Source: Burkholderiales bacterium
GTDB lineage: Bacteria > Pseudomonadota > Gammaproteobacteria > Burkholderiales > SG8-39
DNA length: 64,000 nt
Direction of reading: 5' to 3'
NCBI GenBank assembly: GCA_026417035.1
Contig: JAOAEA010000001.1
Span: forward strand, 1-64,000
Position numbers and translations under genes: made by a program. The notes under the pieces were generated by a model, which ran no database searches, was not told the origin of the DNA, and was given only the letters and a program-made list of their open reading frames with translations. Positions 31,449 through 60,276 of the stretch are shown in pieces; position 1 is the stretch's first letter, and each line of letters begins with the position of its first letter.

Positions 31449-32915
31449 ATGACCCGCCCTGGCGCTCCGCAGCCGCTCACTCTCGTCGAGGCGATCGTCC
31501 CGATCGCGAGCCTCGTGTTGCTCGTCGCGCTGTCGTACTACCTCTTCGGCGACGCCGGCGCGGCCGGCCCGAACCAGATCGCGCTGGTGGTCGCGACCAT
31601 GGTCGCGGTTCTGATCGGGTGGCGGAAAGGGCACTCGCTCGAGTCGCTGCGGGAGGCGGCGGTCGCGAGCGTCGGCTCGGGCCTCGGCGCGATCTTCATC
31701 CTGCTCGCCGTCGGCTCGCTGATCGGCACCTGGGCCCTCAGCGGGACGCTCATCGCGATGGTCTATTACGGCCTGCAGATCCTCAGCCCGAACTATTTCT
31801 ACCTGACGGCGTGCGCCATCGCGGCGGTGGTCTCGTTCAGCGTCGGCAGCTCTTGGACGGTCGTCGGCACGATCGGCATCGGGCTGATGGGGATCGCGGT
31901 CAACATGGACCTCGACCCGGCGATCACGGCGGGAGCCGTGATCTCGGGCGCCTACCTCGGGGACACGACTTCCCCGCTCTCCGACTCCGCGAACCTCGCC
32001 GCCGCGGCCGCGGGCGTCGACCTCTACCAGCACCTGCGCGAGACGGCGCTCACCTCCGTGCTCGCGGTGGCGATCGCGCTCGCGGTGTTCTGGACGCTCG
32101 GCCAGCCCGGCGACTTCGAGGCGAACGCGAAGATCCGCGCGATCGAGGACACGTTCACGATCACCCCGTGGCTGTTCCTGCCGCTCGCGGTCGTCGTCGC
32201 GCTCGCGCTCACGCGGACGCCGCCCTTCACCGCGATCTTCCTGGGCGCGCTGGCGGGCGGCGCGCTCGCGGTGTTCGTCGCCCCCGAGCGGGTGGCCGCG
32301 CTCGCCGGGGCGGGCCAGGACCTGCCCGCCGGGCTCGCGCTCCTGAAGGGGGTGTGGAAGGCGCTCGCGACGGGCTACGTCTCCTCGGCCGGCCACCCGG
32401 CGATCGACCAGCTCCTCACCCGCGGCGGCATGGCGAGCATGCTGAACACCATCTGGCTCATCATCACCGCGCTCGCCTTCGGCGGGGTGGTCGAGAAGGC
32501 CGGCGTGCTCGACCGCCTCATGGCGCCGGTGATCGCGGCGGCGCGCTCGGCGGGCCGTCTCGTCGCTTCGCTCGTCGCCGCGGTGTTCGGGACGAACGTG
32601 GTGACCGCCGACCAGTACATCGCGATCGTGCTGCCGGGCCGGATGTTCAAGGGCGCGTTCGCGAGCCGCGGCCTCGCACCGGTGGTGCTCTCGCGCACGA
32701 TCGCCGCGTCCGGGACGCCGACCTCGGCGCTCATCCCCTGGAACAGCTGCGGCGCCTACATGGCCGCGACCCTGGGCGTCGCGACGGTCAGTTACCTGCC
32801 CTACGCGATCTTCAACTTCGCCAGTCCGATCCTCGCGGTGGCGCTCGCCTACGCGGGGGTGCGCATGCTGCGCGCGCCAGGGAAAGCGGAAGCGGCGCCC
32901 GCGAGGGAGCGCTGA
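31449..32915 (+). CDS. nhaC: NhaC-family Na+/H+ antiporter
   Basis: A 488-residue inner-membrane antiporter with about 11-12 helices. NhaC-type features are VGSGLGAIFILLAVGSLIGTW near residue 75, FSVGSSWTVVGTIGIGLMGI near 130 and the signature GDTTSPLSDSANLAAAA near 176, with GTPTSALIPWNSCGAYMA near 420. Family members exchange cytosolic Na+ for external H+, and some exchange organic acid pairs. The start ATG at 31449 follows GGCAG. The next gene begins 59 bases later on the same strand. It adds to the cation/pH theme of the 31-60 kb region. Confidence 0.92.
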   Translation: MTRPGAPQPLTLVEAIVPIASLVLLVALSYYLFGDAGAAGPNQIALVVATMVAVLIGWRKGHSLESLREAAVASVGSGLGAIFILLAVGSLIGTWALSGTLIAMVYYGLQILSPNYFYLTACAIAAVVSFSVGSSWTVVGTIGIGLMGIAVNMDLDPAITAGAVISGAYLGDTTSPLSDSANLAAAAAGVDLYQHLRETALTSVLAVAIALAVFWTLGQPGDFEANAKIRAIEDTFTITPWLFLPLAVVVALALTRTPPFTAIFLGALAGGALAVFVAPERVAALAGAGQDLPAGLALLKGVWKALATGYVSSAGHPAIDQLLTRGGMASMLNTIWLIITALAFGGVVEKAGVLDRLMAPVIAAARSAGRLVASLVAAVFGTNVVTADQYIAIVLPGRMFKGAFASRGLAPVVLSRTIAASGTPTSALIPWNSCGAYMAATLGVATVSYLPYAIFNFASPILAVALAYAGVRMLRAPGKAEAAPARER

Positions 32916-39030: not shown

Positions 39031-40767
39031 TCAGCGGCCGAGAAGCATCGTCGCGGCGAACGCGATCGCCGCGAGCATGAGCGCGAGCGCGGCCACCGGC
39101 CATTGCCGCAGCACGCCGTCGGCGCGCACGAACGCCGCGCCCGCCGGGACGGTCACACGTCGGACGGCAGCGGCGAGCCCGCCGCCAGCCGCGAGCGGCG
39201 GGAGCTTGCGGCCGAGCGCGACGGCGAGGACCGCCCCGCCCGTCAAGGTGACGAGCGCCGCGCCGAATTCCTTCGCGGCGAGGGGTTTCGGCAGGGCGTC
39301 GAAGGGCGCCGGACCAAGCGCCGCGAACCCGAGGGCGAGCGAGCCGAGCGCCAGCGCGAGCGCGGCGAGCTCGGACAGCCGCGACACGGGTTTCGCGGGC
39401 TCGACCGCGCCCCCGGCCGGACGCGCGAGCGCGTGCGCGAGCACCAGCACGACGTAGCTCGCCGTGAGCAGCCCGCCCACGTCGAGCACCGTTTCCCACC
39501 ACCACCGGCCCGACATCCCCGCGGCGTCGAGCAGCAGCTTCTTCGCCGCGAATGCGCCGCTCGGCGGCAGCCCCATCAGCGCGAGCCCGGCGACGGCGAA
39601 GGTGAGCACGGTGAGCGGCAGCGCCCGCGCGACGCCGCCGAGCTCGGCGATGCGGTCGTGACCGAGCCCGCGATAGACGAGGCCCGCGGCCATGAACATC
39701 GCCGCCTTCGCCAGCGCGTGGGAGATCGCCTGCAGCGTGCCTCCGGCGAGCGCGCCGCCGCGCGCGAGCGCCGCCGCCCCCGCATCGAACGCGAGCGGGA
39801 ACATGAGGAAGAGATAGCCGATCTGCGCGACCGTCGAGTACGCGACCAGCAGCTTCAGCCGCTCCTGCCGCAGCGCGACGACGTTTCCGACGAGGATCGC
39901 GCCCGCGCCGAGCGCGGCGAGGAGCTCGGCCGAGGGCGCGGTGACCACGCCCGGCAGCACGTCGAACCACAGCCGCACGACCAGGAACCACGAGCCCTTG
40001 ACGACCAGGCCCGAGAGCACCGCGCTCGCGGCCGGCGGCGCCCCGGCGTGCGCCGGCGGCAGCCACAGGTGCAGCGGGAAGAGCGCCGTCTTGGCGGCGA
40101 GCCCCACGGTCATGAGCGCCGCGGCGACGAGCGTGGCGGGATCCGGATCGGCCCGCTCGCCGAGGAGCGCGATGTCGAGCGTGCCGTACGTGCCGTAGAC
40201 GAGCACCGCACCGAGCAGGTAGAAGATCGACCCGCTGAGCGCGTAGAGCAGATACCGCAGCGCGGCGCGCAGCGTTTCGGCCTTGCCGTCGAGCGAAACG
40301 AGCGGCACCGCGGCGAAGGTGAGGAGCTCCAGCGCGACCTGCTCGAAGAAGGCCTCGCCCGCGACGAAGACGAGGTTGAGCGCCCCCCAGATGGCGAGGA
40401 GCAGCGTCCAGAAGACGAGCGGCGCGCGCGCCTCGCGCACGCCTTCGGGCGTGGCGAAATCGGCGCGTGCGTAGACGCCGATGCCGAGGATCACCACCGC
40501 GATGGCGGGGATCATCACGAGCGAGAGGGCGTCGGCGCGCAGCGCGATGCCGAGGGGCGGCGGCCAGCCGCCGAGGAGATAGACGAGCGTCCCGCCGGAG
40601 TCCGGCGCCGCGGCGACGATCGCCGCGGCGATCGCGGCGCCGGCGAGGATCGTCACCGCCGCGACGCGCTGCGCGTTGCGTCCACCGAGGGCGAAGCCCG
40701 CGAGCACGCCGACGAACGGCACGAGCACTGCCGCCACGAGCAGGAGCCCGCCGGGCGTCGCCGTCAT
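39031..40767 (-). CDS. mnhD: Mrp-type antiporter subunit D (proton-conducting)
   Basis: A 578-residue membrane protein with about 14 hydrophobic segments, homologous to the antiporter-like subunits of complex I. Key features are FTALLPL-like ALFPLHLWLPPAHAGAPPAASAVLSG near residue 225 (with conserved Lys and His for proton relay), LLVAYSTVAQIGYLFLMFPLA near 308 and ISHALAKAAMFMAAGLVY near 345. It is longer than common MrpD (about 500) through a C-terminal extension with three or four more helices. It is the last gene of the six-gene unit, nine bases after mnhC. No second, MrpA-like ion-translocating subunit is present in the cluster. Confidence 0.92.
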   Translation of the reverse strand: MTATPGGLLLVAAVLVPFVGVLAGFALGGRNAQRVAAVTILAGAAIAAAIVAAAPDSGGTLVYLLGGWPPPLGIALRADALSLVMIPAIAVVILGIGVYARADFATPEGVREARAPLVFWTLLLAIWGALNLVFVAGEAFFEQVALELLTFAAVPLVSLDGKAETLRAALRYLLYALSGSIFYLLGAVLVYGTYGTLDIALLGERADPDPATLVAAALMTVGLAAKTALFPLHLWLPPAHAGAPPAASAVLSGLVVKGSWFLVVRLWFDVLPGVVTAPSAELLAALGAGAILVGNVVALRQERLKLLVAYSTVAQIGYLFLMFPLAFDAGAAALARGGALAGGTLQAISHALAKAAMFMAAGLVYRGLGHDRIAELGGVARALPLTVLTFAVAGLALMGLPPSGAFAAKKLLLDAAGMSGRWWWETVLDVGGLLTASYVVLVLAHALARPAGGAVEPAKPVSRLSELAALALALGSLALGFAALGPAPFDALPKPLAAKEFGAALVTLTGGAVLAVALGRKLPPLAAGGGLAAAVRRVTVPAGAAFVRADGVLRQWPVAALALMLAAIAFAATMLLGR

Positions 40768-40776
40768 GCCGCCTGC

Positions 40777-41109
40777 CTACTCATCGCCCGCGGCCGGCGG
40801 CGGCTCGGGCGCGAGCGTCGCAGAGCCGGTTTCGGCGTGCAGGCGCAGCAGGACCGCGACGGCGAGCGCGGTCGCGGCGAACGCGACCACGAGCCCGGTG
40901 ATCAGCAGCGCCTGCGGGACGGGGTCGCCGCCCCAGCCGGCGGCGGCGCCGCGGTGCGCGACCGCGCCGAACAGCACGAACACGCCCGCGCCGATGACGT
41001 TGAACGCGAGGATCTTGCGCAGCGGCTGCGGATCGACGATGAGCGCATAGACGCCCAGGCCCACGAGCGCCGCGGCCACCAGCCCGAAGAGCGTCGCCGC
41101 GTCGGTCAT
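40777..41109 (-). CDS. mnhC: Mrp-type antiporter subunit C (NuoK-like)
   Basis: A 110-residue protein with three transmembrane helices, homologous to NuoK. The central region IVDPQPLRKILAFNVIGAGVF and DPVPQALLITGLVVAFAATALAVAVLLRL, with its conserved helix-3 pattern, is typical. The start overlaps the stop of the preceding gene by four bases. The tail is Glu/Pro-rich. It assembles with subunit D in the inner membrane. Confidence 0.92.
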   Translation of the reverse strand: MTDAATLFGLVAAALVGLGVYALIVDPQPLRKILAFNVIGAGVFVLFGAVAHRGAAAGWGGDPVPQALLITGLVVAFAATALAVAVLLRLHAETGSATLAPEPPPAAGDE

Positions 41110-42044
41110 CGCTCCGGCCTTTCGGGCGCGCCGGCCATGATCAGCGCGAGCGCGAGCGCGATCGACGGCAGGAGCGCCCACTCGATCAACTTGATGAGCA
41201 GCTTGGCGTAGCCATCGGGGTAAGCGAGGAACGCACCCGCCGTCACGACGCCCGCGGCGCCGACGGCGAGGAACACGACCGCCCCGCCGACGAGCGCGAG
41301 CCGGACCCAGGTCCGGCTGACCGGCGGCGCGTCGGCAAGGCCCGCCACCACCGCGAGCATCCACATCGCCGCGAGGATGGTCGCCGCCTGGAATTTGCCG
41401 CCGGGCTCGTCGGCGCCGACCCAGAAGATGTAGATCGCGACGACGATCCCGATCGGCGGCAGCACGCGCGCGAACCAGGCGAGGATCCCGTCGGGATCGG
41501 CGTGGTGCGGCTGCCCCGGGCGGCCGCCCCAGGCGCGGTCCGGCGCGAGCGACCAGACACCGATCATCGCGAAGAGCACCACGATCGCCTCGAGCAGCGT
41601 GTCCATCGCGCGGAACGCGATCAGCACGGCGGTGATGGGGTTCGCGACGCCGGTCGATGCGATGTTGTCGGCGGTCAAGTGCGCGAGCGTCGGCGCGGGC
41701 TCCGGCAGCGCGAGGATCGCGTAGGCGAGCGCGGCGGTGACGCAGGCCGCGACGCATGCGGCGGCGATTCGCAGGGCGAGGCCGGGGCGCTCGGCACGCG
41801 CCGACGCTTCGGTGTCGCGCAGACGCGCGGCCGCGGCGACCAGCATCGCGCCGGTGAGACCGCCGCCGATCGCGCCCTCGGTGAGCGCGATGTCCACGCC
41901 CTGGAGCTGCACCCACACCAGCGTGAGGACGAGGCCGTAGGCGACGAAACCGACCGTGGCCGCGAAGGTGCTGCGGGCGGCGACCGTCCAGACCGCGAGC
42001 GCGAGGACGAGGACGGCGAGCGCCGCGTTGAGCGCCGCGATCAC
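41106..42044 (-). CDS. mnhB: fused Mrp subunit: DUF4040 (MbhD-like) + MbhE-like + MrpB
   Basis: A 312-residue membrane protein combining three parts. Residues 1-75 match the MbhD/DUF4040 domain (GFVAYGLVLTLVWVQLQGVD, IALTEGAIGGGLTGA). Residues about 95-165 match MbhE (NPITAVLIAFRAMDTLLEAI). Residues about 190-310 match MrpB (VLPPIGIVVAIYIFWVGADE, PGGKFQAATILAAMWML). The first two parts correspond to the C-terminal domain of MrpA in classical Mrp systems and to separate genes in membrane-bound hydrogenases. The start is GTG, overlapping the mnhG stop by four bases. The large NuoL-like part of MrpA is missing. Confidence 0.85.
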   Translation of the reverse strand: MIAALNAALAVLVLALAVWTVAARSTFAATVGFVAYGLVLTLVWVQLQGVDIALTEGAIGGGLTGAMLVAAAARLRDTEASARAERPGLALRIAAACVAACVTAALAYAILALPEPAPTLAHLTADNIASTGVANPITAVLIAFRAMDTLLEAIVVLFAMIGVWSLAPDRAWGGRPGQPHHADPDGILAWFARVLPPIGIVVAIYIFWVGADEPGGKFQAATILAAMWMLAVVAGLADAPPVSRTWVRLALVGGAVVFLAVGAAGVVTAGAFLAYPDGYAKLLIKLIEWALLPSIALALALIMAGAPERPER

Positions 42045-42331
42045 GCGCGCGGCCCCGTGCGCCGCGCCACGCGCGCCACGAGCTGCGACACCGCGCCGCT
42101 CGCCAGCAACACGAGCGCCCAGATGGCGACCAGCTTGAGCGCGCCGAGGAGCCCGTCGACGCGCGGCAGCAGGCCCAGGACGACGAGTCCGAGGCCGAGG
42201 TTGTCGGCCTTGGTGAGCGCGTGCAGCCGCGCGAGCGCATCGGGGAAGCGCAGCAGCCCGACGCTGCCGGCGAGGAAAAAGAAAGCGCCGGCGGAGACCG
42301 CGACGACCGTGAAGAGGTCGGCGAGGCTCAT
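42041..42331 (-). CDS. mnhG: Mrp-type antiporter subunit G
   Basis: A 96-residue protein with three helices and the MnhG/PhaG pattern FFFLAGSVGLLRFPDALARLHALTKADNLG, in which RFPDxxxRxHAxTKAxTLG is the family hallmark. The start overlaps the mnhF stop (ATGA), and the stop overlaps the GTG of the fused subunit, so the genes are tightly coupled. Confidence 0.93.
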   Translation of the reverse strand: MSLADLFTVVAVSAGAFFFLAGSVGLLRFPDALARLHALTKADNLGLGLVVLGLLPRVDGLLGALKLVAIWALVLLASGAVSQLVARVARRTGPRA

Positions 42332-42609
42332 CCGCGGTCGCCTGCGTCGTCGGGCGGCGCGCCCGTCGCGCTCTTGTAGAAGGCGACCGAGGCGAAGGCT
42401 GCGAGCAGCGCGAGCGTGAGCGCGACGTCCACGGTGGCGCCGACGCCGGTCGCCGCGCTCACGAGCAGCGCCACCGCGATCCCGCCGGTGCCGAGGAGCT
42501 GCGCCGCCATCATGCGCTCGGCGTCGCCGGGACCGCGCACGACGCGCGCCAGGCCGAGCGCGACCATCGCCAGGACGAAGAGCGCGGCCCCGAGCAGGAA
42601 CTCAGCCAA
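42328..42609 (-). CDS. mnhF: Mrp-type antiporter subunit F
   Basis: A 93-residue protein with three helices. LGLARVVRGPGDAERMMAAQ is the MnhF signature (RGPxxxDRxxAxxxLG type), followed by GTGGIAVALLVSAATG and LTLALLAAFASVAFYKS. There is no ATG near the family start; I take TTG at 42609, which overlaps the mnhE stop by eight bases and has GGGGAAG upstream. Confidence 0.88.
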   Translation of the reverse strand: MAEFLLGAALFVLAMVALGLARVVRGPGDAERMMAAQLLGTGGIAVALLVSAATGVGATVDVALTLALLAAFASVAFYKSATGAPPDDAGDRG

Positions 42610-43090
42610 GGCGCTTCCCCGGCGCGAGCGCGTCGGCGTACTCGCGCTCCTCGGCAGCGAGCTGCGCCGCCACCGGCTGCCCGACGTCGAGGCAGTGGTA
42701 GGAGATTTCCGCCTCGGTGTCGTCGACGGGCACCGTGCCCGGCATGAGGCTCGTGATGGTCGCGAACGCGTTGCGCGCCGCACCGCGCGCGAAGCCGGTG
42801 CGGTAGCCGACGAACCCCAACCGGAGGGGTACGCCCGGCGCGAGCGCACGGCGGGCGACGTCGACCCCGGCGACGACCGACTGCCACAGGAAGCGCGGCA
42901 GCCGCAGCGCGAGGGCACCGAGGTTCACCCGGCCGGCCTCCGCGGGCAGCAGCCGCAGGCTCGCCCACGTGGCCACGGCAGCCGCGAGCACGCCGACGGC
43001 GAGATCGGCCGGCGCGACGCCGCGGACCAGCACGACCCAGAGCGCGGCGAAACCGAGGAAGCGCGCGAACGCTGTGCCCATCCCTGCCAT
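42602..43090 (-). CDS. mnhE: Mrp-type antiporter subunit E
   Basis: A 162-residue protein with two or three N-terminal helices and a cytosolic tail. MnhE features are FARFLGFAALWVVLVRGVAP, FLWQSVVAGVDVARRALAPG and ITSLMPGTVPVDDTEAEIS, followed by YHCLDVGQP. It is the first gene of the cluster, with CGGAGGG before the ATG at 43090 and a -10-like TAGTCT upstream. Confidence 0.9.
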   Translation of the reverse strand: MAGMGTAFARFLGFAALWVVLVRGVAPADLAVGVLAAAVATWASLRLLPAEAGRVNLGALALRLPRFLWQSVVAGVDVARRALAPGVPLRLGFVGYRTGFARGAARNAFATITSLMPGTVPVDDTEAEISYHCLDVGQPVAAQLAAEEREYADALAPGKRLG

Positions 43091-43220: not shown

Positions 43221-44513
43221 TCACCCGGGGTCATCGTGCGGCCGCGTGCGCTTGCGGATCGCGACGATCACCGGCACGAGCACGGCGGCGACGATCCCGG
43301 CGGCGAAGCCGTTGTTGTAGAGGTTGAGGCCCGCGTGCACTGTGCCCACGGAACGCGCCGCCGACGAGTGGACGAATCCCGCGACGAGCCCCCAGTGCCA
43401 GCCGAAGCGCCCGGCGATCGGCGCGAGCGTGGTGCCGAAGAGCGCGGCGAGCTGCATCGACGGATCGTGCGCGTTCCACGGCTTCGCGAGCGAGCCGAGG
43501 AACACCCCCGCCATGATCGGGACGATGTTGCGCGGATGCTTCCCGAAGGCGGCGAACCCGACGATCGTGAAGATCGCGCCGATGACGGGCCCGTTGAGAT
43601 CGCCGCCCACGACGAGGATGTAGGCCATCGCGACCGCGCCGGCGAGCCCCATGTTGACGAGCGTCGCGCCAAAGCCGGCGAGCGCGATGAAGTCGGTCGG
43701 GGACTGGCCGGGCGCCGCGAGGATCGTCTTCAGGCCGGCGCGCGCCCCACGGTCGAACCGGAAACCGACGGCCACCATCGAGGCGAAGAGGACCGCGAGG
43801 AACGCGCCGAGCAGCAGGTCGTTGCCGGTCGTCCAGACGAACACCGGATCGGGCACGAAGCCGTACGACTTGTAGAGCGCGACGACCAGCGTGCCGACGA
43901 GCCCCGCGGTGAACCCCATGTTGTAGAGGCTGAACCCCTCGTGCGCCTTGAAGAGCTGCGCCGCGGCGGGCGGCAGGACGAAGCCGATCGCGAGTCCGGT
44001 CGCGATCGCGAGCGGAACGCCGACGGCCGGCGCGAGGCTCGTGCTGAAGAGGATCTCCGAGAAGATCGGCGCCAGCGCCACGCCGAAGAAGGCGGTGTTG
44101 AGATGCGTCGCGAATGCCTCGCCTCGGAAACGGGCGTAGAGCCAGACCCCGGCGACGATCGCCCAGACGTTGAGGAGGTTCTTGCCGAACAGGGCGAAAC
44201 CGAGGACGAGGAAGAGGCACGCGACCGCCGCCCCGGTCATCCTGGCGCCGGCCTTGTGGTAGACGAAACATGCGCACAACGTGAGGAGCCCCGCGTTCAC
44301 GCAGGCGCCGCCGATCCCGCCGATGCCCATGTAATCGGTGAGCAGGGCGTCCCGCGTCGTGAGGATCGCGACGAGCCCCTGCGCCACCGCCCCGGGGCCG
44401 TCCACGGCCAGGCCGAAAACGACGAATGCGGCCGCGTACGCGGCGACGACCGCGAGGATGGTGCGGTCCGGCACCGGCGCCGGGGTCGCCTCAGGGTGCG
44501 CTGCGCCGCTCAT
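43221..44513 (-). CDS. DUF1576 family polytopic membrane protein
   Basis: A 430-residue inner-membrane protein with about 12 hydrophobic segments, which I recognise as DUF1576-like. It is built of two similar halves. [13 protein letters not shown] (63-75) corresponds to [12 protein letters not shown] (278-289), GFALFGKN (105-112) to GFAAFGKH (319-326), and [17 protein letters not shown] (191-207) to [18 protein letters not shown] (392-409). Such internal duplication is common in channels and transporters, including urea channels. The start ATG at 44513 follows AAAGG. It is divergent from ureA with 126 bases between the starts, suggesting shared control. The function of the family is not known; a transport role linked to urea, ammonium or CO2 is only a hypothesis. 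Confidence 0.72.
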
Positions 44514-44565
44514 GTGCGCCTTTCTCGCTCGACCGCTTCCGGAATAAAACAACCGCGAAAGAAGA

Positions 44566-44595
44566 TTGACGCGGCGAAATCCCCTCGGATACAGT
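44566..44595 (+). promoter_or_regulatory. candidate sigma-70 promoter of the urease operon (TTGACG-18-TACAGT)
   Basis: TTGACG (44566-44571) and TACAGT (44590-44595) are spaced by 18 bases, placing the transcript start about 38 bases before ureA. The same 126-base gap must hold the divergent DUF1576 promoter, for example around the AT-rich GGAATAAAACAAC at 44541-44553. Confidence 0.6.
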
Positions 44596-44639
44596 GCCCG
44601 AGCGCTCGCTGCCCGTGCCACGGACGAAGAGAGGTCTTC

Positions 44640-44942
44640 ATGCAGCTCACACCACGGGAATTCGACAAGCTCCTTATTTACATGCTCGCCGAGGTGGCGC
44701 TCAAGCGCAAGGCGAAGGGCATCAAGCTCAATTACCCGGAAGCCGTCGCCGTCATCTCCGCCGTCGCGCTCGACGGCGCGCGTGCGGGCAAGACGATCGA
44801 GGAGGTCACCAAGGAGGCGCGCACCGCGCTCTCCAAGGCCGACGTCATGGACGGCGTCGCCGACCTCATCCCGATGGTGCAGATCGAGGCGGTGTTCACC
44901 GACGGCAGCCGCCTCGTGACCGTGCACACCCCGATCCAATAG
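44640..44942 (+). CDS. ureA: urease subunit gamma
   Basis: A 100-residue subunit of the nickel enzyme that hydrolyses urea to ammonia and carbamate. It is recognised by [20 protein letters not shown], then [35 protein letters not shown] and [14 protein letters not shown]-like [15 protein letters not shown]. The length is standard. The start ATG at 44640 follows AGAGAGG. It is first in the order ureA-ureB-ureC-ureE-ureF-ureG-ureD. Confidence 0.97.
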
Positions 44943-44962: not shown

Positions 44963-45415
44963 ATGGCGATCGTCAAGTCCTACCCCAGCCTCGCACCCGA
45001 CGTCGATCCGGCGACCGCCAGCGTGCCGGTGGGCGGCTACGTGTGCCGGAAGGAAGACCTGCGCTACCACGACCAGCTGCCGGTCACCACCCTCAAGGTG
45101 CGCAACACCGGCGACCGGCCGGTGCAGGTGGGTTCGCACTTCCACTTCTTCGAGGTGAACCGCGCGCTCGAGTTCGACCGCGCGGCCGCGTTCGGGCAGC
45201 ACCTCAACATCCCGGCGGCGACCGCGATCCGCTTCGAGCCCGGCGACGAACGCGAAGTGAGCCTGGTGCCCTACCTCGGCAAGCGCGCCGTGTACGGGTT
45301 CAACAACCTGGTGGACGGGCCGACCGCGGGCAAGGCGGCCGAGGCGAAGAAGGCGAAGGCGGTGGCGGCTGCGGCGAAGCGCGGCTTCCGCTCCGCGCCG
45401 GCGAAGAAGCGCTGA
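44963..45415 (+). CDS. ureB: urease subunit beta with basic C-terminal tail
   Basis: A 150-residue urease subunit with the typical core: [20 protein letters not shown]-like [60 protein letters not shown] and [14 protein letters not shown]. The last about 30 residues form a Lys/Ala/Arg-rich tail ([18 protein letters not shown]) not found in classical ureases of about 100-125 residues. Such tails occur in some beta-proteobacterial homologues; their role is unclear. The ATG at 44963 lies 20 bases after the ureA stop, with AGGAG upstream. Confidence 0.96.
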
Positions 45416-45445: not shown

Positions 45446-47167
45446 ATGGCGAGGATTTCCCGCAACGAGTACGTCGGGCTCTACGGCCCGACCGTCGGCG
45501 ACCGCATCCGGCTCGGCGACACCGGCCTCTACGTCGAGATCGAGCGCGATCTGCGCGGCGCGCCCGGCGACGAGATCGTCTTCGGCGGCGGCAAGAGCAT
45601 GCGCGAAGGCATGGGCATGGACAACCGGATCACGCGCGCCGGCGGCGCGCCCGACCTCGTGATCACGAACGTGACCATCATCGACGCGGTGCTCGGCGTC
45701 GTGAAGGCCGACGTCGGCATCAAGGACGGCCGCATCTGCGCGATCGGCAAGGCCGGCAACCCGCAGACCATGGACGGGATCACGCCGGGGCTGGAGTGCG
45801 GCCTCGCGACCGACGCCATCTCGGGCGCGCACCTCATCCTCACCGCCGCGGGCATCGACACGCACATCCACTACATCTCGCCGCAGCAGGCGTACGCCGC
45901 ACTCTCGAACGGCACCACCACGCTGATCGGCGGCGGCACCGGGCCTTCCGACGGCTCGAACGCGACCACCGTCACGCCGGGGCCGGGGAACATCCGCAAC
46001 ATGCTGCGCGCCTTCGAGAACTGGCCGATCAACGTCGGCATCCTCGGCAAAGGGCACGGCCACGGCAAGGCGGCGCTCGTCGAGCAGGTCGAGGCCGGGG
46101 CGGTGGGCTTCAAGTGCCACGAGGACTGGGGCACCACGCCGGCGGTGCTGCGCTCCGCGCTCACCGTCGCCGACGAGATGGACGTGCAGGTCTGCATCCA
46201 CACCGACACGCTGAACGAGTCGGGCTTCGTCGAGGACACGATCGCCGCGTTCGAGGGCCGCACCGTCCACTCGTTCCACACGGAAGGGTCGGGCGGCGGC
46301 CACGCGCCGGACATCATCAAGGTGTCGGGCCTCGCGAACGTGCTGCCGTCGTCGACCAACCCCACGCTCCCCTACGGCATCAACTCGCAGGCGGAGCTCT
46401 ACGACATGATCATGGTGTGCCACCACCTCTCGCCCGACATCCCGTCGGACGTGGCGTTCACCGAGAGCCGCATCCGCGCCGAGACGATCGCCGCCGAGAA
46501 CGTGCTGCACGATCTCGGCGTGATCTCGATGATGTCGAGTGACTCGCAGGCGATGGGCCGGATCGGGGAATGTTGGCTGCGCACCATCCAGACCGCGGAT
46601 GCGATGAAGACGCAGCGCGGCAAGCTCCCCGAGGACGCGAAGGGCAACGACAACTTCCGCGTCCTGCGCTACGTGGCGAAGATCACCATCAACCCGGCGA
46701 TCGCGCACGGCATCTCGCACGTGCTCGGCTCGGTCGAAGTGGGCAAGATCGCCGACCTCGTGCTCTGGGAGCCCGCGTTCTTCGGCGCGAAGCCCAAGCT
46801 CGTGCTCAAGGGCGGCGTGATCACCTGGGGCCTGATGGGCGACCCGAACGCGTCGCTGCCGACGCCGCAGCCGGTCTATTACCGGCCGATGTTCGGCGCC
46901 TTCGGAAAGCTCCTGCCGGACACGTGCATCACGTTCGTCTCGCGCGCGGCGCACGCGGCGGGCATCAAGAAGAAGCTCGGCCTGGAGCGGCAGGTCATGC
47001 CGGTGCGCAACACGCGCAAGATCGGCAAGCGCGACATGGTGCGCAATTCGGGCACGCCGAAGATCGAGGTGGATCCGGAGACCTTCGCGGTCACCGTGGA
47101 CGGCAGGCACGCGACCGTCAAGCCGCTCACGACCGTCTCGCTCAACCAGAAGTACTTCTTCAGCTGA
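45446..47167 (+). CDS. ureC: urease subunit alpha (catalytic, nickel-binding)
   Basis: A 573-residue catalytic subunit. All active-site residues align with Klebsiella urease at an offset of six: nickel ligands His140 and His142 (in [10 protein letters not shown]), the carbamylated Lys223 (GFKCHEDWG), His252 ([11 protein letters not shown]), His278 ([12 protein letters not shown]) and Asp366 ([10 protein letters not shown]), plus the flap residues Cys325 and His326 (VCHHLSPD). The enzyme therefore looks fully competent. The ATG at 45446 gives [19 protein letters not shown]. It is 30 bases after ureB, and ureE follows after 11 bases. Confidence 0.98.
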
Positions 47168-47178
47168 AGGGCCGCGCC

Positions 47179-47850
47179 GTGATCCTCGTCGAGGCGGTGC
47201 TCGGCAACGTTGCCGATCCGCAGTGGGCGGCGCGGCTCGCCGGCGCGTCGATGGACACGCTGGCGCTCGACCACTGGGAGGCGCAGAAGAACCGCCTGCG
47301 CAAGAAGACCGCCGGGGGCGCCGAGATCGCCGTGTCGCTCGACCGCGGCACCTTCATGCGCGACGGCGACGTGCTCGTCTGGGACGAATCCGCGCGCCGT
47401 GCGGTGGTCGCGCGGATCGCGCTGCGCGACGTGATGGTGGTGCACCTCGACGGGATCGCCGGCGACCCGCCGGAGGTCGCGCTGCGCACCTGCGTCGAGC
47501 TCGGCCACGCGCTCGGCAACCAGCACTGGCCGGCGCTCGTCAAGGGCACGCGCGTGTACGTGCCGCTCACCGTGGACCGCAAGGTGATGAGCTCGGTGAT
47601 GAACACGCACCGCTTCGAGGGCATCCGCTACGAGTTCGTGCCCGGCGGCGAGGTCGTCCCCTATCTCGCGCCGCACGAGTCGCGCCGCCTCTTCGGCGGG
47701 GCCGAGGGGCCGGTGCACACACACACGCACGAGCGCTACGTGGAGGTCGATGCCGCGACCGGGCACGCCTGGGGGCGTCCGCCGGTGCACGCGCACGATC
47801 ACGCGCATCCGCACGCGCACCCGCACGCCGAAGGCGACCCGCACCGATGA
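47179..47850 (+). CDS. ureE: urease accessory protein UreE (nickel chaperone)
   Basis: A 223-residue nickel-binding metallochaperone. The N-terminal peptide-binding domain contains LDRGTFMRDGDVLVWDESAR. The C-terminal domain has ELGHALGNQHWPALVKGTRVYV, with the interface His near residue 117. The last about 50 residues are rich in His, with alternating His-Pro/Ala (THTHERYVEV, VHAHDHAHPHAHPHAEG), giving a strong nickel-storing tail. The start is GTG at 47179 behind AAGG. The stop overlaps the ureF start by four bases. Confidence 0.95.
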   Translation: MILVEAVLGNVADPQWAARLAGASMDTLALDHWEAQKNRLRKKTAGGAEIAVSLDRGTFMRDGDVLVWDESARRAVVARIALRDVMVVHLDGIAGDPPEVALRTCVELGHALGNQHWPALVKGTRVYVPLTVDRKVMSSVMNTHRFEGIRYEFVPGGEVVPYLAPHESRRLFGGAEGPVHTHTHERYVEVDAATGHAWGRPPVHAHDHAHPHAHPHAEGDPHR

Positions 47851-48566
47851 CGGCGGCCCGCGACGGCGCGGCGGGCCTGGCCGCCGCTGCGCGCCTCGCG
47901 CGCTTCCTGCAATTCGGCGATTCGATGTTCCCGGTGGGCGCGTTCGCGTTCTCCGCCGGGCTCGAATCCGCGATCCAGAAACGCGTGGTGACCGACGCCG
48001 GGACGCTCGAGTCCTACGCGCGCACGGCGCTCGAGCAGGCAGCGATGGGCGACGGGATCGCGCTCCTCTGGGCGCATCGCGCCGCGGTGGCCGGCGACCT
48101 GGACGAGGTCGCGCGCATCGACGCGCTCGCCTACGCGCGCAAGCTCTCCTCCGAGACGCGCACGATGACGGTGCGCATGGGGAAGAAACTCGCCGAGATG
48201 GCGGCCGAGGTGACCGGCGCGCCCCTCGCTGCGCACTGGCGCGCGCGCATCGACGCCGGCGTGACGCCGGGATGCTACCCGGTGGCGCTCGCGGTGAGCT
48301 TCGCCGCGCAGGGCCTCCCCGCGCGCGACGCGTTCGTGGTGCACCACTACGGCGTGGCGGCGATGATCCTCGGCGCGGCGCTGCGCCTGATGAAGGTGAG
48401 CCACGTGGACACGCAGCGGATCCTCTACGCGCTCAATGCCGGCGCGGACGAGGCCTACGAGGCGACGGCCGCGGCGCGTCTCGAGGACATGGCCGGGTTC
48501 GCGCCGCTCGCCGAGATCCTCGCGGCGGTGCACGTCAAGGCGCACGTGCGCCTCTTCATGAGCTGA
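47847..48566 (+). CDS. ureF: urease accessory protein UreF
   Basis: A 239-residue helical accessory protein that gates UreG GTPase activity during nickel insertion. Typical UreF stretches are RFLQFGDSMFPVGAFAFSAG, LESYARTALEQAAMGDGIAL, then RKLSSETRTMTVRMGKKLAEM and SFAAQGLPARDAFVVHHYG. The ATG at 47847 overlaps the ureE stop. The C-terminal VHVKAHVRLFMS is a common UreF end. Confidence 0.96.
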   Translation: MTAARDGAAGLAAAARLARFLQFGDSMFPVGAFAFSAGLESAIQKRVVTDAGTLESYARTALEQAAMGDGIALLWAHRAAVAGDLDEVARIDALAYARKLSSETRTMTVRMGKKLAEMAAEVTGAPLAAHWRARIDAGVTPGCYPVALAVSFAAQGLPARDAFVVHHYGVAAMILGAALRLMKVSHVDTQRILYALNAGADEAYEATAAARLEDMAGFAPLAEILAAVHVKAHVRLFMS

Positions 48567-48581
48567 ACGGGGACTGAGAAA

Positions 48582-49229
48582 GTGAAGAAGAAGATCACGC
48601 GCATCGGCATCGGCGGCCCGGTCGGGTCGGGCAAGACCGCGATCATCGAGGCGATCACGCCGCAGCTCCTCGACATGGGGATCAAGGTCCTGATCATCAC
48701 CAACGACGTGGTGACGACCGAGGACGCCAAGCACGTGCAGCGCACCCTCAAGGGCATCCTGCTCGAAGAGCGCATCCTCGGGGTGGAGACCGGCGCCTGC
48801 CCGCACACCGCGGTGCGCGAGGACCCCAGCATGAACCTCGCCGCGGTGGAGGACATGGAGGCGCGCTTTCCCGACGGCGACGTGGTGCTGATCGAGAGCG
48901 GCGGCGACAACCTGACGCTCACCTTCTCGCCGGCGCTGGTCGACTTCTTCATCTACGTGATCGACGTCGCCGCCGGCGACAAGATCCCGCGCAAAAACGG
49001 CCCCGGCATCACGCAGTCCGACATCCTCGTCATCAACAAGACCGACCTCGCGCCGCACGTGGGCGCGAGCCTCGAGGTGATGGCGCGCGACTCGAAGCTG
49101 ATGCGCGGCGACAAGCCCTTCCTGTTCACCAACTGCAAGACCGGCGAGGGCATCCCGGAGCTCGTCCAGGCGATCCGCCGGGACATGCTCTTCGACCTGA
49201 AGCTGCCGGCCCGGCAGAGCGCGGCGTGA
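48582..49229 (+). CDS. ureG: urease accessory protein UreG (GTPase)
   Basis: A 215-residue SIMIBI-class GTPase that carries nickel to apourease. The P-loop [17 protein letters not shown], the nickel-binding region [17 protein letters not shown] (CPH motif), [19 protein letters not shown] and the guanine motif [14 protein letters not shown] are all present. The start is a GTG at 48582 with GGGGACTGAGAAA upstream; an ATG alternative is not available nearby. Confidence 0.97.
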
Positions 49230-49301: not shown

Positions 49302-50264
49302 ATGAAGCTCACCGAGCACGCGCCGATCCCCACACCGTGGGCGGCCGCCGAGGCGCTCGGGGCTTCGGCCGCGGAGCTCGCCGCGTTCCACGACGAGCCG
49401 CCGCAGATGGCGAGCGGCGCAGTCGGCAAGACCGGGTACCTGCGGCTCGGCTTCGAGCGGCGCGGCGAGCGCACCGTCCTCGCCGAGCTCGACCGCCGCA
49501 CGCCGTTCATGGCGCAGCGCGCGCTCTATCCCGACGAGGCGATGCCCGACCTCGCGTGGGTCTTCATGATCACCACGTCGGGCTGCGTGCTGCAGGGCGA
49601 CCGCCTCGCGCTGGAGATCGAGCTGGCGCCTGGCGCGCGCGCGCACGTCACCACGCAGTCGGCGACCAAGGTGCACTCGATGGACGCCAACTACGCGGTG
49701 CAGACCCAGGTCGTGTCGCTCGCCGACGGCGCCTACCTCGAGCTCATGCCCGAGCCGCTGATCCCGCACCGCCGCGCGCGCTTTCTCTCCGACACGCGCA
49801 TCGCGATCGCGCCGACGGCGACGCTCCTGTACGGGGAGATCGTCCAGCCGGGCCGCAAGCACCACCACCCGGACGAGGTGTTCGGCGCCACCGCGCTGTC
49901 GCTCGCGACGAGCGCCGCGCGTCCCGGCGGCGAGCTCCTCTTCGCCGAGAAACTCCTCGTCGACCCGGTACGCCGCCCGGTGCGGCAGACCGGCGTGATG
50001 GGCCCGTTCGACGTGCTCGCGAACGTGATCCTGCTCACCACGAAGGACGCCGCCGACCGCGTCCACGCGCGGGTCGCAGCGGACGTGGACCTCGCGAACG
50101 GCGTCGCGTTCGGCGCCTGCCACCTGCCGAACGACGCCGGCCTCGTCTTCAAGGTGCTCGGCCGCGAGACCCTGCCGGTCAAGGCGAAGGTGCGCGAATT
50201 CTGGGCGATCGCGCGCGAGGAAATCGCCGGGACGGCGCTACCGCCGCCCTACTTCTGGCGCTGA
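49302..50264 (+). CDS. ureD: urease accessory protein UreD (UreH)
   Basis: A 320-residue scaffold protein for nickel insertion. Recognised segments are MASGAVGKTGYLRLGFERR, RTPFMAQRALYPDEAMPDLA, TTSGCVLQGDRLALEIELAP, THVTTQSATKVHSM-like AHVTTQSATKVHSMDANYAV and LELMPEPLIPHRRARF. In classical operons ureD comes first (ureDABCEFG); here it is last, after ureG, with a 72-base gap. The ATG at 49302 is preferred over the upstream in-frame start at 49248. Confidence 0.93.
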   Translation: MKLTEHAPIPTPWAAAEALGASAAELAAFHDEPPQMASGAVGKTGYLRLGFERRGERTVLAELDRRTPFMAQRALYPDEAMPDLAWVFMITTSGCVLQGDRLALEIELAPGARAHVTTQSATKVHSMDANYAVQTQVVSLADGAYLELMPEPLIPHRRARFLSDTRIAIAPTATLLYGEIVQPGRKHHHPDEVFGATALSLATSAARPGGELLFAEKLLVDPVRRPVRQTGVMGPFDVLANVILLTTKDAADRVHARVAADVDLANGVAFGACHLPNDAGLVFKVLGRETLPVKAKVREFWAIAREEIAGTALPPPYFWR

Positions 50265-50278: not shown

Positions 50279-51250
50279 ATGAAGGGACTGCTGACGTGGT
50301 GGGAAAGCTGCTGCGCCTCCTCGAAGTTCCTGCGCTTCATCGACTACAACCTGCGCGGCATCGGGCAGGTGATGTTCATGGACAACCCGCTCTCGGGGCT
50401 CGTCTTCTTCGTCGCGATCGGCTGGGGCTCGGTCGCCGCCGGCATGCCGCAGGTCGCGATCGGCGGGCTGGTGGCGCTCGTCGCGGGCACGCTCATGGCG
50501 CAGTGGCTGCGCGTGGAAGCAGCCGACCTCGGCGCGGGCCTGTACGGCTACAACGCTTACCTCGTCGGCCTGGCGCTCGGGACGTTCCTCGCGCCCTCGC
50601 CGCTCTTCTGGCTCTACGTCGCGTTCGGCGGCGCGGTGTCGGTGGTGGCGACGCTCGGGACCGCCAACGTCTTCAAGACCTGGGGCGTCGCCGCCCTGAC
50701 CGCGCCGTTCGTCCTCACGACCTGGCTCCTGCTCCTCGCCGCCTACGCGTTCGCGGCGATCGGCGGCAGCGGCCTGCCCATGGCGAACGCGGTCGCGCCG
50801 ATCGACGCCGCCGCGGCGAACCCGCTCGCGTTCGGCGATTTCGTCGCTGGCGTCCTGAAGAGCATCGGACAGGTGTTCCTGAAGGCGAGCCCCGTCGCCG
50901 CGATCCTGCTCCTCGTCGGGCTGGCGGTGAACTCGCTCGCCGCCGCGGCGTTCGCGCTGGCCGGCGCGGTCGTCGCCGTGGTCACCGCCCATGCCCTGGG
51001 CGCCGAGAGCGACCTCATCACGGGCGGGCTGATGGGCTTCAGCCCGGTGCTCACCGCGGTCGCCCTCGGGGCGGTGTTCTACAAGCCAGGGGTGAAGGTG
51101 GCGCTCTACGCGCTCGCGGCGACGGTGTTCACCGTCATCGTCCAAGGAGCGCTCAACGTCGCCATCGCGCCGTTCGGTATCCCCACGCTGACCGCGCCGT
51201 TCGTCCTCGCGTCCTGGCTGTTCCTCCTGCCGCGCCGGCACTTCGAGTGA
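50279..51250 (+). CDS. urea channel/transporter (UT family)
   Basis: A 323-residue membrane protein of the urea transporter family, made of two homologous halves. Visible features are FIDYNLRGIGQVMFMDNPLSG near residue 20, GLYGYNAYLVGLALGTF near 90, LTAPFVLTTWLLLLAAYAF near 138, GLMGFSPVLTAVALGAVFY near 245 and a second LTAPFVLASWLFLLPRR at the end. By family it allows facilitated urea uptake across the inner membrane. It starts 14 bases after ureD, with GGGAGG upstream, so it belongs to the urease operon and supplies its substrate. Confidence 0.92.
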   Translation: MKGLLTWWESCCASSKFLRFIDYNLRGIGQVMFMDNPLSGLVFFVAIGWGSVAAGMPQVAIGGLVALVAGTLMAQWLRVEAADLGAGLYGYNAYLVGLALGTFLAPSPLFWLYVAFGGAVSVVATLGTANVFKTWGVAALTAPFVLTTWLLLLAAYAFAAIGGSGLPMANAVAPIDAAAANPLAFGDFVAGVLKSIGQVFLKASPVAAILLLVGLAVNSLAAAAFALAGAVVAVVTAHALGAESDLITGGLMGFSPVLTAVALGAVFYKPGVKVALYALAATVFTVIVQGALNVAIAPFGIPTLTAPFVLASWLFLLPRRHFE

Positions 51251-53057: not shown

Positions 53058-56000
53058 CTACGCCGCCGCGCCCTTCGCGCCCGCGGGAGGCGCTGCCTCG
53101 CCGGGCCGGCCGCCGAAAACGGTGACGTAGAGCGTCGGCAGGACGACGAGCGTGAGCAGGGTGGCGACCAGCAGTCCGCCCATGATGGCGAACGCCATCG
53201 GTCCCCAGAAGACGGTGGGCGCGATCGGGATGAGGCCGAGCACGGTGGAGAGCGCGGCAAGCGAGAGCGGGCGCATGCGCGAGCTCGCTGCCGCGACCAC
53301 CGCGTCCCACACGCTCTTGCCCTCGGCGCGATCGGTCTCGATCTGGACGACGAGGATGACTGCGTTCTTCGCCACCATCCCGATCAGCGCCAGGATGCCG
53401 AGGATCGCCACGAAACCGAGCGGGCGGTTGAAGACGAGCAGCGCGAGCACGACACCGATCAGCGCGAGCGGCAGCACCGCGACCACGATGCCGACGCGGC
53501 GGAAGCTCTGCAGCTGGAACATGAGCACGGTGAGCATCAGCCCGAGCATGAGCGGGACGACGGCGAACACCGACGCCTGCGACACCGCGCTCTCCTCGGC
53601 GATGCCGCCGAGCTCGACGCGGTAGCCCTTGGGAAGCTTCGCCGCGAGCGCGTCGATCTTCGGCTCGAGCTCCGCCACCACCGTGTCGGGCAGCACGCCG
53701 GGCGCGACGTCGGCGCGGACGGTGAGCGTCGGCACGCGGTTGCGGCGCCAGACGAGCGGGTACTCCTCGCCGTACTCGAAGGTGGCGAACTGGCCGAGCG
53801 GCACGGTGCGCCCGCCCGGCAGCGGCACCTGCAGCGACCGCAGCGTGTCGATCTGGGCGCGCTCCTCGCCGACGGCGCGGGCGACGACGTCCACGAGATA
53901 GATGTCGTCGCGGATCTGCGTGACCGTCGTCCCGGTGATCGACGCGTTGAGCACGCCGCCGAGCGCCGCGGAGGAGACGCCGAGGCTCCGCGCCTGGTCC
54001 TGGTCCACCTTGACGCGGAGCTGCCGCGCCGGCTCCATCCAGTCGAAGTTGATGCGCCGTGCGTTCGGCGTGGAGGCCACGGTCTGCGCCACCTGCTGCG
54101 CGATGCGCGCGACCTCGTCCTTGTCGGGGCCGCTCACCCGGTACTGCAGGGGCCAGCCCACCGGCGGCCCGAGCTCGAGCGGCCAGATCCCCGACACGAC
54201 CTCCGGAAACTCCTCGGCGAGCAGCTTCTCGAGCTTCGCCTCGAGGCGCCGGCGCGCCTCGAAGCTCTTCGCCACCACCACCGCCTGGCCGAAGAAGTCG
54301 TTCGCGAGCTGCACGTTGAGCGGCAGGTAGAAGCGGATCGCGCCGCGGCCCACGTAGGTGCTCCAGCTCTCGACGTCCGGATCCTTGGCGAGCGCCGCGT
54401 CGAAGCGTTTGGTCACCGCCTCGGTGGCGAAGATCGAGGCGTTCTGGCGCAGGGCGAGGTCGACGACCAGCTCGGGGCGGTCGGAGGACGGGAAGAACTG
54501 TCGCGGCACGAAACGCGAGCCGTACACCGCGGCCACGAAGACCGCGAGCGAAAGCGCGATGGTCAACCACTTCGCGCGCATGGCGAATTCGAGGAAGCGC
54601 TTGTAGGCGTTCTCGACCCTGCCCGGCTTCTCCTGCCCGGCGCCGCCCTTGGGGGCTTTGAGGATGGCGAGCCCGATGACCGGCGCGAAGATCACCGCCA
54701 CGAGCCACGAGGTGACGAGCGCGATCGCGACCACGGCGAAGATCGAGAACGTGTACTCGCCCGCGGAGCTGCGCGCGAACCCGATCGGCACGAAGCTCGC
54801 GATGGTGATCAGCGTCCCGGCGAGCATCGGCGCGGCGAGGGTCCGGTACGCGAAGGTGCCGGCCTGCTCTTTGGTGTCGCCGGCGGCGAGGCGCCGCAGG
54901 ATCGCGTCCACCGTGGTCATCGCGTCGTCCACGAGCAGCGCCAGCGCGATGATGAGCGCGCCGAGCGAGATGCGGTGCAGGTCGATGTGGACGACCTGCA
55001 TCACCGCGAAGACGACGGCGAGCGTGAGCGGAATGGCGGTCGCCACCACCATGCCGGGCCGCAGGCCGAGCATGACGAAGCTCGCGCCGAGGATGATGAC
55101 GATGGCCTGCCACAGCGAGGTCATGAAATCGCTGATGGCGAGATCCACGACGACCGACTGGTCGGTGACCAGGTGGGGCTCGATGCCGATCGGAAGATTC
55201 GCGCGGATGTCCGCCATCTCGGCCTTGAGGTTCTTGCCGAGCTGCAGGATGTCGCCGCCGTCGCGCATGGAAATCGCGAGCCCGATCGCCGGCACGCCGT
55301 TCACCCGGAACATCGGCTGCGGCGGGTCGGCGTAGCCGCGGCGGATGGTGGCGATGTCCGAGAGGGGCACGAGGCGGTCGCCGACGCGGAAGTTGACCTT
55401 CTTCAGGTCCTCCTCGGTCTCGAAGGCGCCGGACACGCGCAGGAAGATGCGCTCGCCGCCGGTCTGCATCACGCCGGTGGGGCGGACCAGGTTCTGCGCC
55501 TGGAGCTGCTGCACGAGCTGCGCGTAGGACAGTCCGAGCCCGGCGAGCCGCGCGGTGGAGAACTCGAGGTAGACGCGCTCGTCCTGCGCGCCGAGGATCT
55601 CGATCTTCGAGACATCGGGCACGGTGAGCAGGCGCGAGCGCGCGTGCTCCACGTAGTCGCGCAGCTCCCGCTGGCCGAAGCCGTCGGCGGTGAAGCCGTA
55701 GATGATGCCGAAGGTGTCGCCGAAGTCGTCGTTCAGGCCCGGGCCGAGCACGCCCTGCGGCAGGGTCCCGCGGATGTCGCCCATGCTGTTGCGGACCTGC
55801 TGCCAGATGGGCGGAATCTCGGGCGCGCTCGTGGACTGGCGCAGCTCCACGAAGATGATGGTGGTGCCCGCCGTGGTGTAGCTGCGCAGGCGGTCGAGTT
55901 TGTCCGTCTCCTGGAGCTTGCGCTCGAGGCGCTCGGTGACCTGCAGGAGCATGTCCTCGAGGGACGCGCCCGGCCACGCGGCGGAAACGACCATGGTGCG

Positions 56001-56135
56001 GATCGTGATCGGCGGGTCCTCGCCGCGGCCGAGACTCTTGAACGCCATCGTCCCGGCGACCACCGCCACGATCATGAAGAACACGACCAGCGAGCGGCGC
56101 CCGAGGGCCCACTCCGAAAGGTTCGGGCCGATCAC
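53058..56135 (-). CDS. RND efflux pump inner-membrane subunit
   Basis: A 1025-residue proton-driven efflux transporter of the AcrB/MexF superfamily with 12 helices and two large periplasmic loops. Features include LGRGEDPPITIRTMVVSAAWPG-like start (residues 36-55), IALALLVDDAMTTVDAILRR near residue 400 (proton-relay Asp pair in helix 4), FVPIGFARSSAGEYTFSIF near 462 and the C-terminal LIPIAPTVFWGPMAFAIMGG. The start is a GTG that overlaps the stop of the fusion-protein gene (GTGA). No outer-membrane channel gene is in the unit, so a TolC-like protein must come from elsewhere. The substrate is unknown. Confidence 0.93.
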   Translation of the reverse strand: MIGPNLSEWALGRRSLVVFFMIVAVVAGTMAFKSLGRGEDPPITIRTMVVSAAWPGASLEDMLLQVTERLERKLQETDKLDRLRSYTTAGTTIIFVELRQSTSAPEIPPIWQQVRNSMGDIRGTLPQGVLGPGLNDDFGDTFGIIYGFTADGFGQRELRDYVEHARSRLLTVPDVSKIEILGAQDERVYLEFSTARLAGLGLSYAQLVQQLQAQNLVRPTGVMQTGGERIFLRVSGAFETEEDLKKVNFRVGDRLVPLSDIATIRRGYADPPQPMFRVNGVPAIGLAISMRDGGDILQLGKNLKAEMADIRANLPIGIEPHLVTDQSVVVDLAISDFMTSLWQAIVIILGASFVMLGLRPGMVVATAIPLTLAVVFAVMQVVHIDLHRISLGALIIALALLVDDAMTTVDAILRRLAAGDTKEQAGTFAYRTLAAPMLAGTLITIASFVPIGFARSSAGEYTFSIFAVVAIALVTSWLVAVIFAPVIGLAILKAPKGGAGQEKPGRVENAYKRFLEFAMRAKWLTIALSLAVFVAAVYGSRFVPRQFFPSSDRPELVVDLALRQNASIFATEAVTKRFDAALAKDPDVESWSTYVGRGAIRFYLPLNVQLANDFFGQAVVVAKSFEARRRLEAKLEKLLAEEFPEVVSGIWPLELGPPVGWPLQYRVSGPDKDEVARIAQQVAQTVASTPNARRINFDWMEPARQLRVKVDQDQARSLGVSSAALGGVLNASITGTTVTQIRDDIYLVDVVARAVGEERAQIDTLRSLQVPLPGGRTVPLGQFATFEYGEEYPLVWRRNRVPTLTVRADVAPGVLPDTVVAELEPKIDALAAKLPKGYRVELGGIAEESAVSQASVFAVVPLMLGLMLTVLMFQLQSFRRVGIVVAVLPLALIGVVLALLVFNRPLGFVAILGILALIGMVAKNAVILVVQIETDRAEGKSVWDAVVAAASSRMRPLSLAALSTVLGLIPIAPTVFWGPMAFAIMGGLLVATLLTLVVLPTLYVTVFGGRPGEAAPPAGAKGAAA

Positions 56136-57226: not shown

Positions 57227-57326
57227 GGCATGGACGGGCACGACCACCCCCGGGAGATTCGCGTTTCGGGACCGACGCAGCGGCGCCCGCATGTTAATCG
57301 AACCGGGCCGCCGGCGATCGCGGCCC

Positions 57327-60051: not shown

Positions 60052-60199
60052 GCTGCCTCCCTGGGGACCGCGGTCGGACGATTGCCGCGCGGAAAGCCTC
60101 AGCGGCTCGGGTGCCCTGCGGCGGGCGTATCCGCACCCGCCGGCGTGAGTTTCGGGCGCCGGCCATCCGGCGGTGATGGCCGCGCGAAAGAACGGCCCG

Positions 60200-60228
60200 A
60201 TTCTCCCCGAGCCCGATGGGGGTGGCAA
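60200..60228 (-). promoter_or_regulatory. candidate promoter of arcD-arcA (TTGCCA-17-GAGAAT)
   Basis: On the minus strand TTGCCA (60228-60223) and GAGAAT (60205-60200) are spaced by 17 bases, giving a leader of about 140 bases before the arcD ATG. No FNR/ANR box is seen here, unlike many arc operons. Confidence 0.5.
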
Positions 60229-60276
60229 TACGACCGGGGGCCGACGCCGCGCAGCGGAGCAGCGGCCGTGCCGCTT

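Follow-up and report, generated by a model that had tools for sequence, protein, structure and literature searches.

We tentatively propose that the DUF1576 membrane protein of a Burkholderiales bacterium is a channel or facilitator of the Amt/Rh–UT–NqrB/RnfD fold, which in Proteobacteria would form part of a urea-use module and pass a small molecule of the urea reaction across the membrane, most likely ammonia or ammonium in the outward direction. Computation shows the protein to be internally duplicated, linked to urease-related genes in relatives, fused to MnhE in some of them and predicted to adopt this fold. The gene lies at positions 43221–44513 of the 64,000-nucleotide stretch of DNA analyzed here (the window). 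A literature search for DUF1576 and PF07613 found no paper.

The gene and its neighbors in the window

DUF1576 is a single open reading frame on the minus strand (ATG at 44513, stop at 43221) that encodes 430 amino acids. Pfam family PF07613 matches the protein with 362.8 bits, against a cut-off of 25, in two stretches, one per half. Local alignment of the halves as single sequences gave a score of 210, whereas 1000 shuffles reached 86 at most, and profile–profile comparison with hhalign gave an E value of 7e-28 with 32% identity over 173 columns. As judged by these sequence comparisons, the halves are homologous beyond doubt. The first-pass annotation, made from the window alone, had already described one internally duplicated reading frame with matching motifs in its two halves; the duplication is borne out, and those motif pairs fall opposite each other in the half-versus-half alignment.

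The divergent urease operon occupies the plus strand in the order ureA-B-C-E-F-G-D-UT. It comprises ureA (44640–44942; PF00547, E 6e-39), ureB (44963–45415; an open reading frame with homologs in linked loci), ureC (45446–47167; NCBIfam urease subunit alpha equivalog), ureE (47170–47850; PF02814 and PF05194), ureF (47847–48566; likewise an open reading frame with homologs in linked loci), ureG (48582–49229; homologs in linked loci are 86–94% identical), ureD (49302–50264; PF01774, E 1e-45) and, starting 14 bp after ureD, a UT-family (Yut) urea channel gene (50279–51250; PF03253, E 1.6e-81, also given as 2e-81; equivalog TIGR03441). Two further statements of the first-pass annotation hold: the urea channel gene closes the operon, and the start codons of DUF1576 and ureA, the latter at 44640, share a spacer of 126 bp (44514–44639). 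This spacer contains one sigma-70-like site, at 44566–44595, oriented toward ureA, and none for the DUF1576 strand. A conserved regulatory motif in the ureA–DUF1576 spacer was considered and rejected, as the spacers of relatives fail to align.

On its other side DUF1576 is followed, after a gap of 130 bp, by a co-directional series of mnh genes (43090–39031, minus strand) that the first-pass annotation had overlooked. These are mnhE/mrpE (42602–43090; PF01899, E 1e-22), an mnhF/mrpF-like gene (42328–42609, start approximate; homologous to MnhF reading frames near DUF1576 elsewhere), an mnhG/mrpG-like gene (42041–42331; homologs in other loci), a gene for an MbhD-MbhE-MnhB-type subunit equivalent to the C-terminal part of MrpA plus MrpB (41106–42044; PF13244, PF20501 and PF04039), an mnhC/mrpC-like gene (40777–41109; homologs in other loci) and a gene for an MrpD-type antiporter subunit (39031–40767; PF00361, E 8e-47, and NCBIfam subunit D models), which is the sole large antiporter subunit of the operon. 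Neither around DUF1576 nor between it and mnhE was a terminator-like site detected. DUF1576 stands at the head of this co-directional Mrp/Mnh operon, mnhEFGBCD. With its fused MbhD/MbhE/MnhB subunit and one MrpD-like subunit, the operon resembles the antiporter part of membrane-bound hydrogenase, whose subunits have been matched to those of Mrp (PMC7419157).

Several other genes in the window are of note. A gene for an NhaC-type Na+/H+ antiporter, just under the equivalog cut-off, lies in the region of the Mrp operon (31449–32915, plus strand). Genes for an RND efflux pump and a HlyD-type adaptor (53058–57155 and 56132–57292, minus strand) are found near DUF1576 here, and similar ones in the DUF1576 loci L006, L009, L011, L014, L015, L017, L035, L039 and L042. 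Arginine deiminase, an ammonia-releasing enzyme, is encoded at 57351–58601 beside an amino acid permease at 58618–60306 (minus strand); both genes are seen again near DUF1576 in L009 and L011, with a remnant in L033, hinting at a common ammonia-producing or acid-stress neighborhood.

Predicted fold and conserved residues

An AlphaFold2 model of DUF1576, built from a 50-sequence alignment, has a pLDDT of 90.8 and a pTM of 0.91. Foldseek returned nothing for the model at E ≤ 0.001. In a second comparison, using VIA-align against 996 PDB chains, the predicted structure matched AmtB (1u77) with Z 14.1 over 258 residues at 4.7 Å, a score that helical models may reach without kinship, followed by Sd-Amt1 (Z 13.1), Rh50 (3b9w; Z 12.6), UT-B (4ezc; Z 11.9), dvUT (3k3f; Z 11.8) and the RnfD/NqrB proteins (Z 8.3–9.4 at 4.3–7 Å; RnfD 9.4, NqrB 8.8). 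Among the matches listed, all with Z above 8 are Amt, Rh, UT, RnfD or NqrB, and the next unrelated ones are UlaA (5.7) and GatC (3.4). We trust the fold match for three reasons: (i) the matches listed above Z 8 constitute one previously described fold group, NqrB having been described as resembling UT and Amt (PMC10643135); (ii) the matches cover nearly the whole chain; and (iii) scores are far lower for several hundred other aligned chains, of which many are helical transporters. It is well supported, at the level of a predicted model, that DUF1576 shares the overall fold of Amt/Rh and UT, and perhaps that of NqrB/RnfD.

The sequence tells a different story from the predicted fold. PF00909 (Amt/Rh) and PF03253 (UT) are absent among the Pfam matches of DUF1576 up to E 10, a DUF1576 profile found no chain among PDB sequences up to E 10, and hhalign against the UT family profile gave E 0.07 with a probability of 0.8%. 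Kinship to UT or Amt at the sequence level was accordingly rejected, and DUF1576 appears to be a sequence-distinct family with a predicted Amt/UT fold. The first-pass annotation had suggested comparing a predicted structure with the UT and Amt folds, and both are matched by the model; its description of a second, unrelated membrane protein tied to urease stands as regards sequence and linkage across many Proteobacteria, but not as regards the predicted fold, which groups DUF1576 with Amt/Rh/UT/NqrB.

From secondary structure and charge we infer a topology of 10 TM helices and two re-entrant hairpins, arranged as inverted halves of five TM helices and one hairpin each. Loops rich in K/R follow TM2 and hairpin 1 and occur at 251–275 and the C-terminus, and K/R-poor loops are found at 52–60, 154–163, 299–309 and 386–399; this distribution fits the inverted 5+5 arrangement. 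Amt proteins have 11 TM helices, and UT is a 10-TM inverted repeat with re-entrant elements. Amt/Mep/Rh is the best structural match, extending over nearly the full length, and likewise consists of two inverted halves, although it differs from DUF1576 in helix number, in the invariant lysine pair described below and in having no detectable sequence similarity; no glnK-like gene was noticed beside DUF1576. UT/SLC14 has an inverted 10-TM repeat and shares its gene cluster with DUF1576, but its conserved residues differ and UT itself is encoded next door. The NqrB/RnfD subunits of Na+-NQR and RNF may share the predicted fold of DUF1576, which resembles them in its genetic link to a Na+-handling complex; for DUF1576, however, that complex is Mrp, there is no sequence match to NqrB/RnfD, and there are no redox partner genes.

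Eleven residues are invariant in all 50 sequences (D60, K111, N115, H191, Y197, N198, D274, K325, N329, H382 and Y399), and N112, W117, N287, H326, H393, N400 and N401 are nearly so. Most are paired across the repeat: D60/D274, K111/K325, N115/N329, H191/H393, Y197/Y399 and N198/N400, which suggests a putative symmetric pore lining. H191 (50 of 50) and H393 (47 of 50) make up a pseudo-symmetric histidine pair that may correspond to the twin pore histidines of Amt/Mep/Rh. K111 and K325 are located at the tips of the predicted hairpins, beside invariant asparagines.

These lysines bear on a different reading, which we regard as fairly unlikely, namely that DUF1576 is a channel for bicarbonate or another anion, releasing or retaining the carbonate formed by urease. 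The invariant lysine that each hairpin carries is easier to reconcile with an anion than with NH4+, urease yields one carbonate per urea, and several hosts are, by their names, purple sulfur or other CO2-fixing bacteria. However, the proteins matched in fold are channels for neutral or cationic solutes, D60 and D274 may neutralize the lysines, and the amino-acid-fermenting Bacillota that carry DUF1576 offer no specific link to carbonate.

Genomic linkage across relatives

Searching a single genome from each species yielded 57 DUF1576 loci, 42 of which are proteobacterial by record title (L006, titled only 'uncultured bacterium', being assigned there by 77% identity and gene content) and 15 of which come from Bacillota, Synergistota, Cyanobacteria and Tsukamurella. 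Within 10 kb of DUF1576, in counts uncorrected for shared ancestry, UT is encoded in 31 of the 57 loci, UreC in 18, MnhE in 15, NikR in 5 and NikQ in 4; at distances below 600 bp the numbers are 11 for UreA, 12 for UT, 5 for NikR and 2 for UreG. None of the 15 loci outside Proteobacteria has a UT-, UreC-, MnhE- or NikR-type neighbor, so that all of the linkage comes from proteobacterial loci. It takes at least five different gene orders: DUF1576 divergent from ureA (the window, L005–L008, L010, L045 and L047), UT-DUF1576-ureA (L026 and L033), ureG-DUF1576 (L031 and L038), DUF1576 convergent with UT (L019, L027, L034, L044 and L061), and a Kaistia type combining nickel ECF genes, DUF1576, NikR and mnh genes (L013 and others). 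UreC proteins of the linked loci are either about 90% or 56–63% identical to that of the window, so that the linked ureases belong to two clearly divergent types. On a tree of 50 DUF1576 proteins, UT linkage shows at least 8 state changes and UreC linkage at least 10, both inflated by truncated contigs.

A true urease (E < 1e-20) is present in 33 of the 37 proteobacterial DUF1576 hosts searched, whereas in the phylum sample 83 of 249 genomes have one (Fisher p 6e-11, ancestry ignored). Across the 398 genomes of the phylum sample, DUF1576 exceeds the cut-off solely in the window's own genome, and the family is therefore rare. Weak PF07613 matches in other Gammaproteobacteria (L003 and L004) proved DsbD-like on inspection and were discarded as relatives. 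The first-pass annotation had proposed a neighborhood survey for urease or nitrogen genes and had staked the tie of the family to urease on statistical linkage; such linkage exists in Proteobacteria, where the association of DUF1576 with urease-related genes is well supported, but the tie does not extend to the other lineages, none of the 10 Bacillota and Synergistota hosts searched having a true urease.

Some loci show decay or additional neighbors. In L011 and L014 (about 7.9–9.7 kb), pieces of ureA and ureD, and in L014 also of ureE, lie beside DUF1576 and ureC is gone locally; DUF1576, which is kept, therefore outlasts its urease operon there. The DUF1576 frame itself is broken in L047 (around 10900) and in L099 (1903–2993), by a frameshift or an assembly error. 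In four Rhizobiales loci (L019, L027, L034 and L061), genes that inspection of the sequence identifies as those of a cytochrome bd oxidase come after the convergent DUF1576–UT pair.

The same neighborhoods could be read as those of a second urea permease, or a nickel permease, serving urease. NikR and ECF nickel genes adjoin DUF1576 in Kaistia and its relatives, NicO lies near it in L029, and the UT fold is matched at Z 11.9. Yet a dedicated importer, either UT or one for nickel, is already present in these loci, a urea permease would be redundant with the UT next door, and the conserved residues include no Cys/His-rich metal site, so this role seems very improbable. A precedent for the Kaistia-type loci is the ure2 operon of Brucella abortus, ureABCEFGDT-nikKMLQO, in which urease, UT and ECF nickel genes are likewise united, although the operon as described has neither DUF1576 nor Mrp genes (PMC2868824). 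An Amt gene in that operon was also considered and rejected, being absent from the same description.

In four purple sulfur bacteria DUF1576 and MnhE are fused in single open reading frames of 649–721 amino acids (L011, 9962–12028; L014, 9983–12148; L017, 9986–12043; L021, 9980–11929). The four fusions fall in one clade and probably reflect a single event. In L006, DUF1576 and mnhE share a 4-bp overlap. DUF1576 could, on this evidence, be an accessory Na+ or K+ path or a subunit of the Mrp antiporter, comparable to NqrB, the Na+ path of Na+-NQR. The mnh genes that follow it on its own strand, both in the window and in many other loci, the fusions, the fold match to NqrB/RnfD, and the position of MrpE, which caps the Mrp complex and makes its dimer interface (PMC7419157), all speak for such a path. 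We nevertheless consider it distinctly unlikely: in most linked loci UT or urease, not Mrp, is found beside DUF1576, no Mrp genes lie close to the copies of Bacillota, Cyanobacteria and Actinobacteria, and the fusion is confined to one clade.

In Bacillota and Synergistota a different partner appears. Of 12 loci from these two phyla, 10 have directly 3' of DUF1576 a gene for a small protein of about 115 amino acids, and so do most of the additional Clostridia-class loci (L046, L048, L050, L053–L057, L059, L060, L064, L087–L094 and L097). The model of this protein (pLDDT 83) resembles the ATPase domains of GHKL proteins (SiaB, Z 8.5; SpoIIAB, 7.6; DesK, 7.3), and the predicted fold is of GHKL type; an analogy to PII/GlnK was rejected, the predicted fold not being that of PII. 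Two divergent partners (L094 and L097) match HATPase_c above the cut-off and have visible E/N and DNGSGM motifs, but most lack recognizable ATP-binding motifs. The pairing could mean that DUF1576 is a sensor or transceptor, a channel fold that binds a ligand, with the Bacillota copies signaling via the adjacent GHKL protein. The frequency of the partner and the two HATPase_c matches are in keeping with this, as is Ks-Amt5, in which an Amt fused to a histidine kinase is an ammonium sensor (PMC5764959). In Ks-Amt5, however, an Amt-fold membrane protein is coupled by fusion to a full kinase, whereas the DUF1576 partner is separate, small, mostly degenerate and restricted to Bacillota and Synergistota; with the partner missing in Proteobacteria, the window included, and its motifs mostly absent, a sensory role appears quite improbable.

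Amt is missing in seven of nine Bacillota/Synergistota DUF1576 hosts. The idea that DUF1576 replaces Amt was nonetheless rejected: in a Clostridia-class sample Amt is present in 7 of 14 carriers and in 57 of 134 other genomes, which indicates no exclusion, so that DUF1576 neither replaces nor follows Amt.

A possible outlet for the products of urea breakdown

Urea breakdown floods the cell with ammonia and carbonate and alkalinizes the cytoplasm. Inlets for urea are known, but we are aware of no established gene for an outlet dedicated to the products in these urease clusters. Fold and context together are most simply explained by a channel that carries some small molecule of urea metabolism, and DUF1576 is probably such a channel, the molecule being perhaps ammonia. 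We infer conduction, substrate and direction, as well as any physical contact with Mrp in the organism of the window. The first-pass annotation had listed ammonium, CO2/bicarbonate, nickel and urea as candidate substrates, and our preference among these comes from indirect evidence. In the proposed scheme, urea would enter via UT and nickel via the nickel importers, urease would convert urea to ammonia and carbonate, DUF1576 would move ammonia or ammonium, the most likely substrate, outward across the membrane, and Mrp-type antiporters would exchange Na+ and H+, controlling cytoplasmic pH and countering alkalinization.

Exit of ammonia or ammonium is favored because these loci already provide importers dedicated to urea and to nickel and because the window genome has two Amt genes, which makes a role other than scavenging plausible. 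We also count in favor of ammonia the arginine deiminase encoded near DUF1576 in the window, L009 and L011, a second source of this product. Against the proposal stand the lack of sequence kinship to Amt or UT, the empty Foldseek result, the invariant lysines of the hairpins, and the wide occurrence of the family without urease in Bacillota and Synergistota. A broader form of the proposal, which we hold to be unlikely, would make DUF1576 a further family of Amt/UT-fold channels built into or beside an Mrp-type antiporter, coupling export of urease products to Na+/H+ exchange, with a GHKL-regulated counterpart in ammonia-producing anaerobes.

The present analysis provides a first functional lead for DUF1576, and would enlarge the small Amt/UT/NqrB fold group by one sequence family. 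The genomic context and predicted fold make the question of the missing outlet directly testable. If the broader form of the proposal is true, Mrp-coupled DUF1576 would serve urea breakdown both as a dedicated outlet and as a means of balancing pH.
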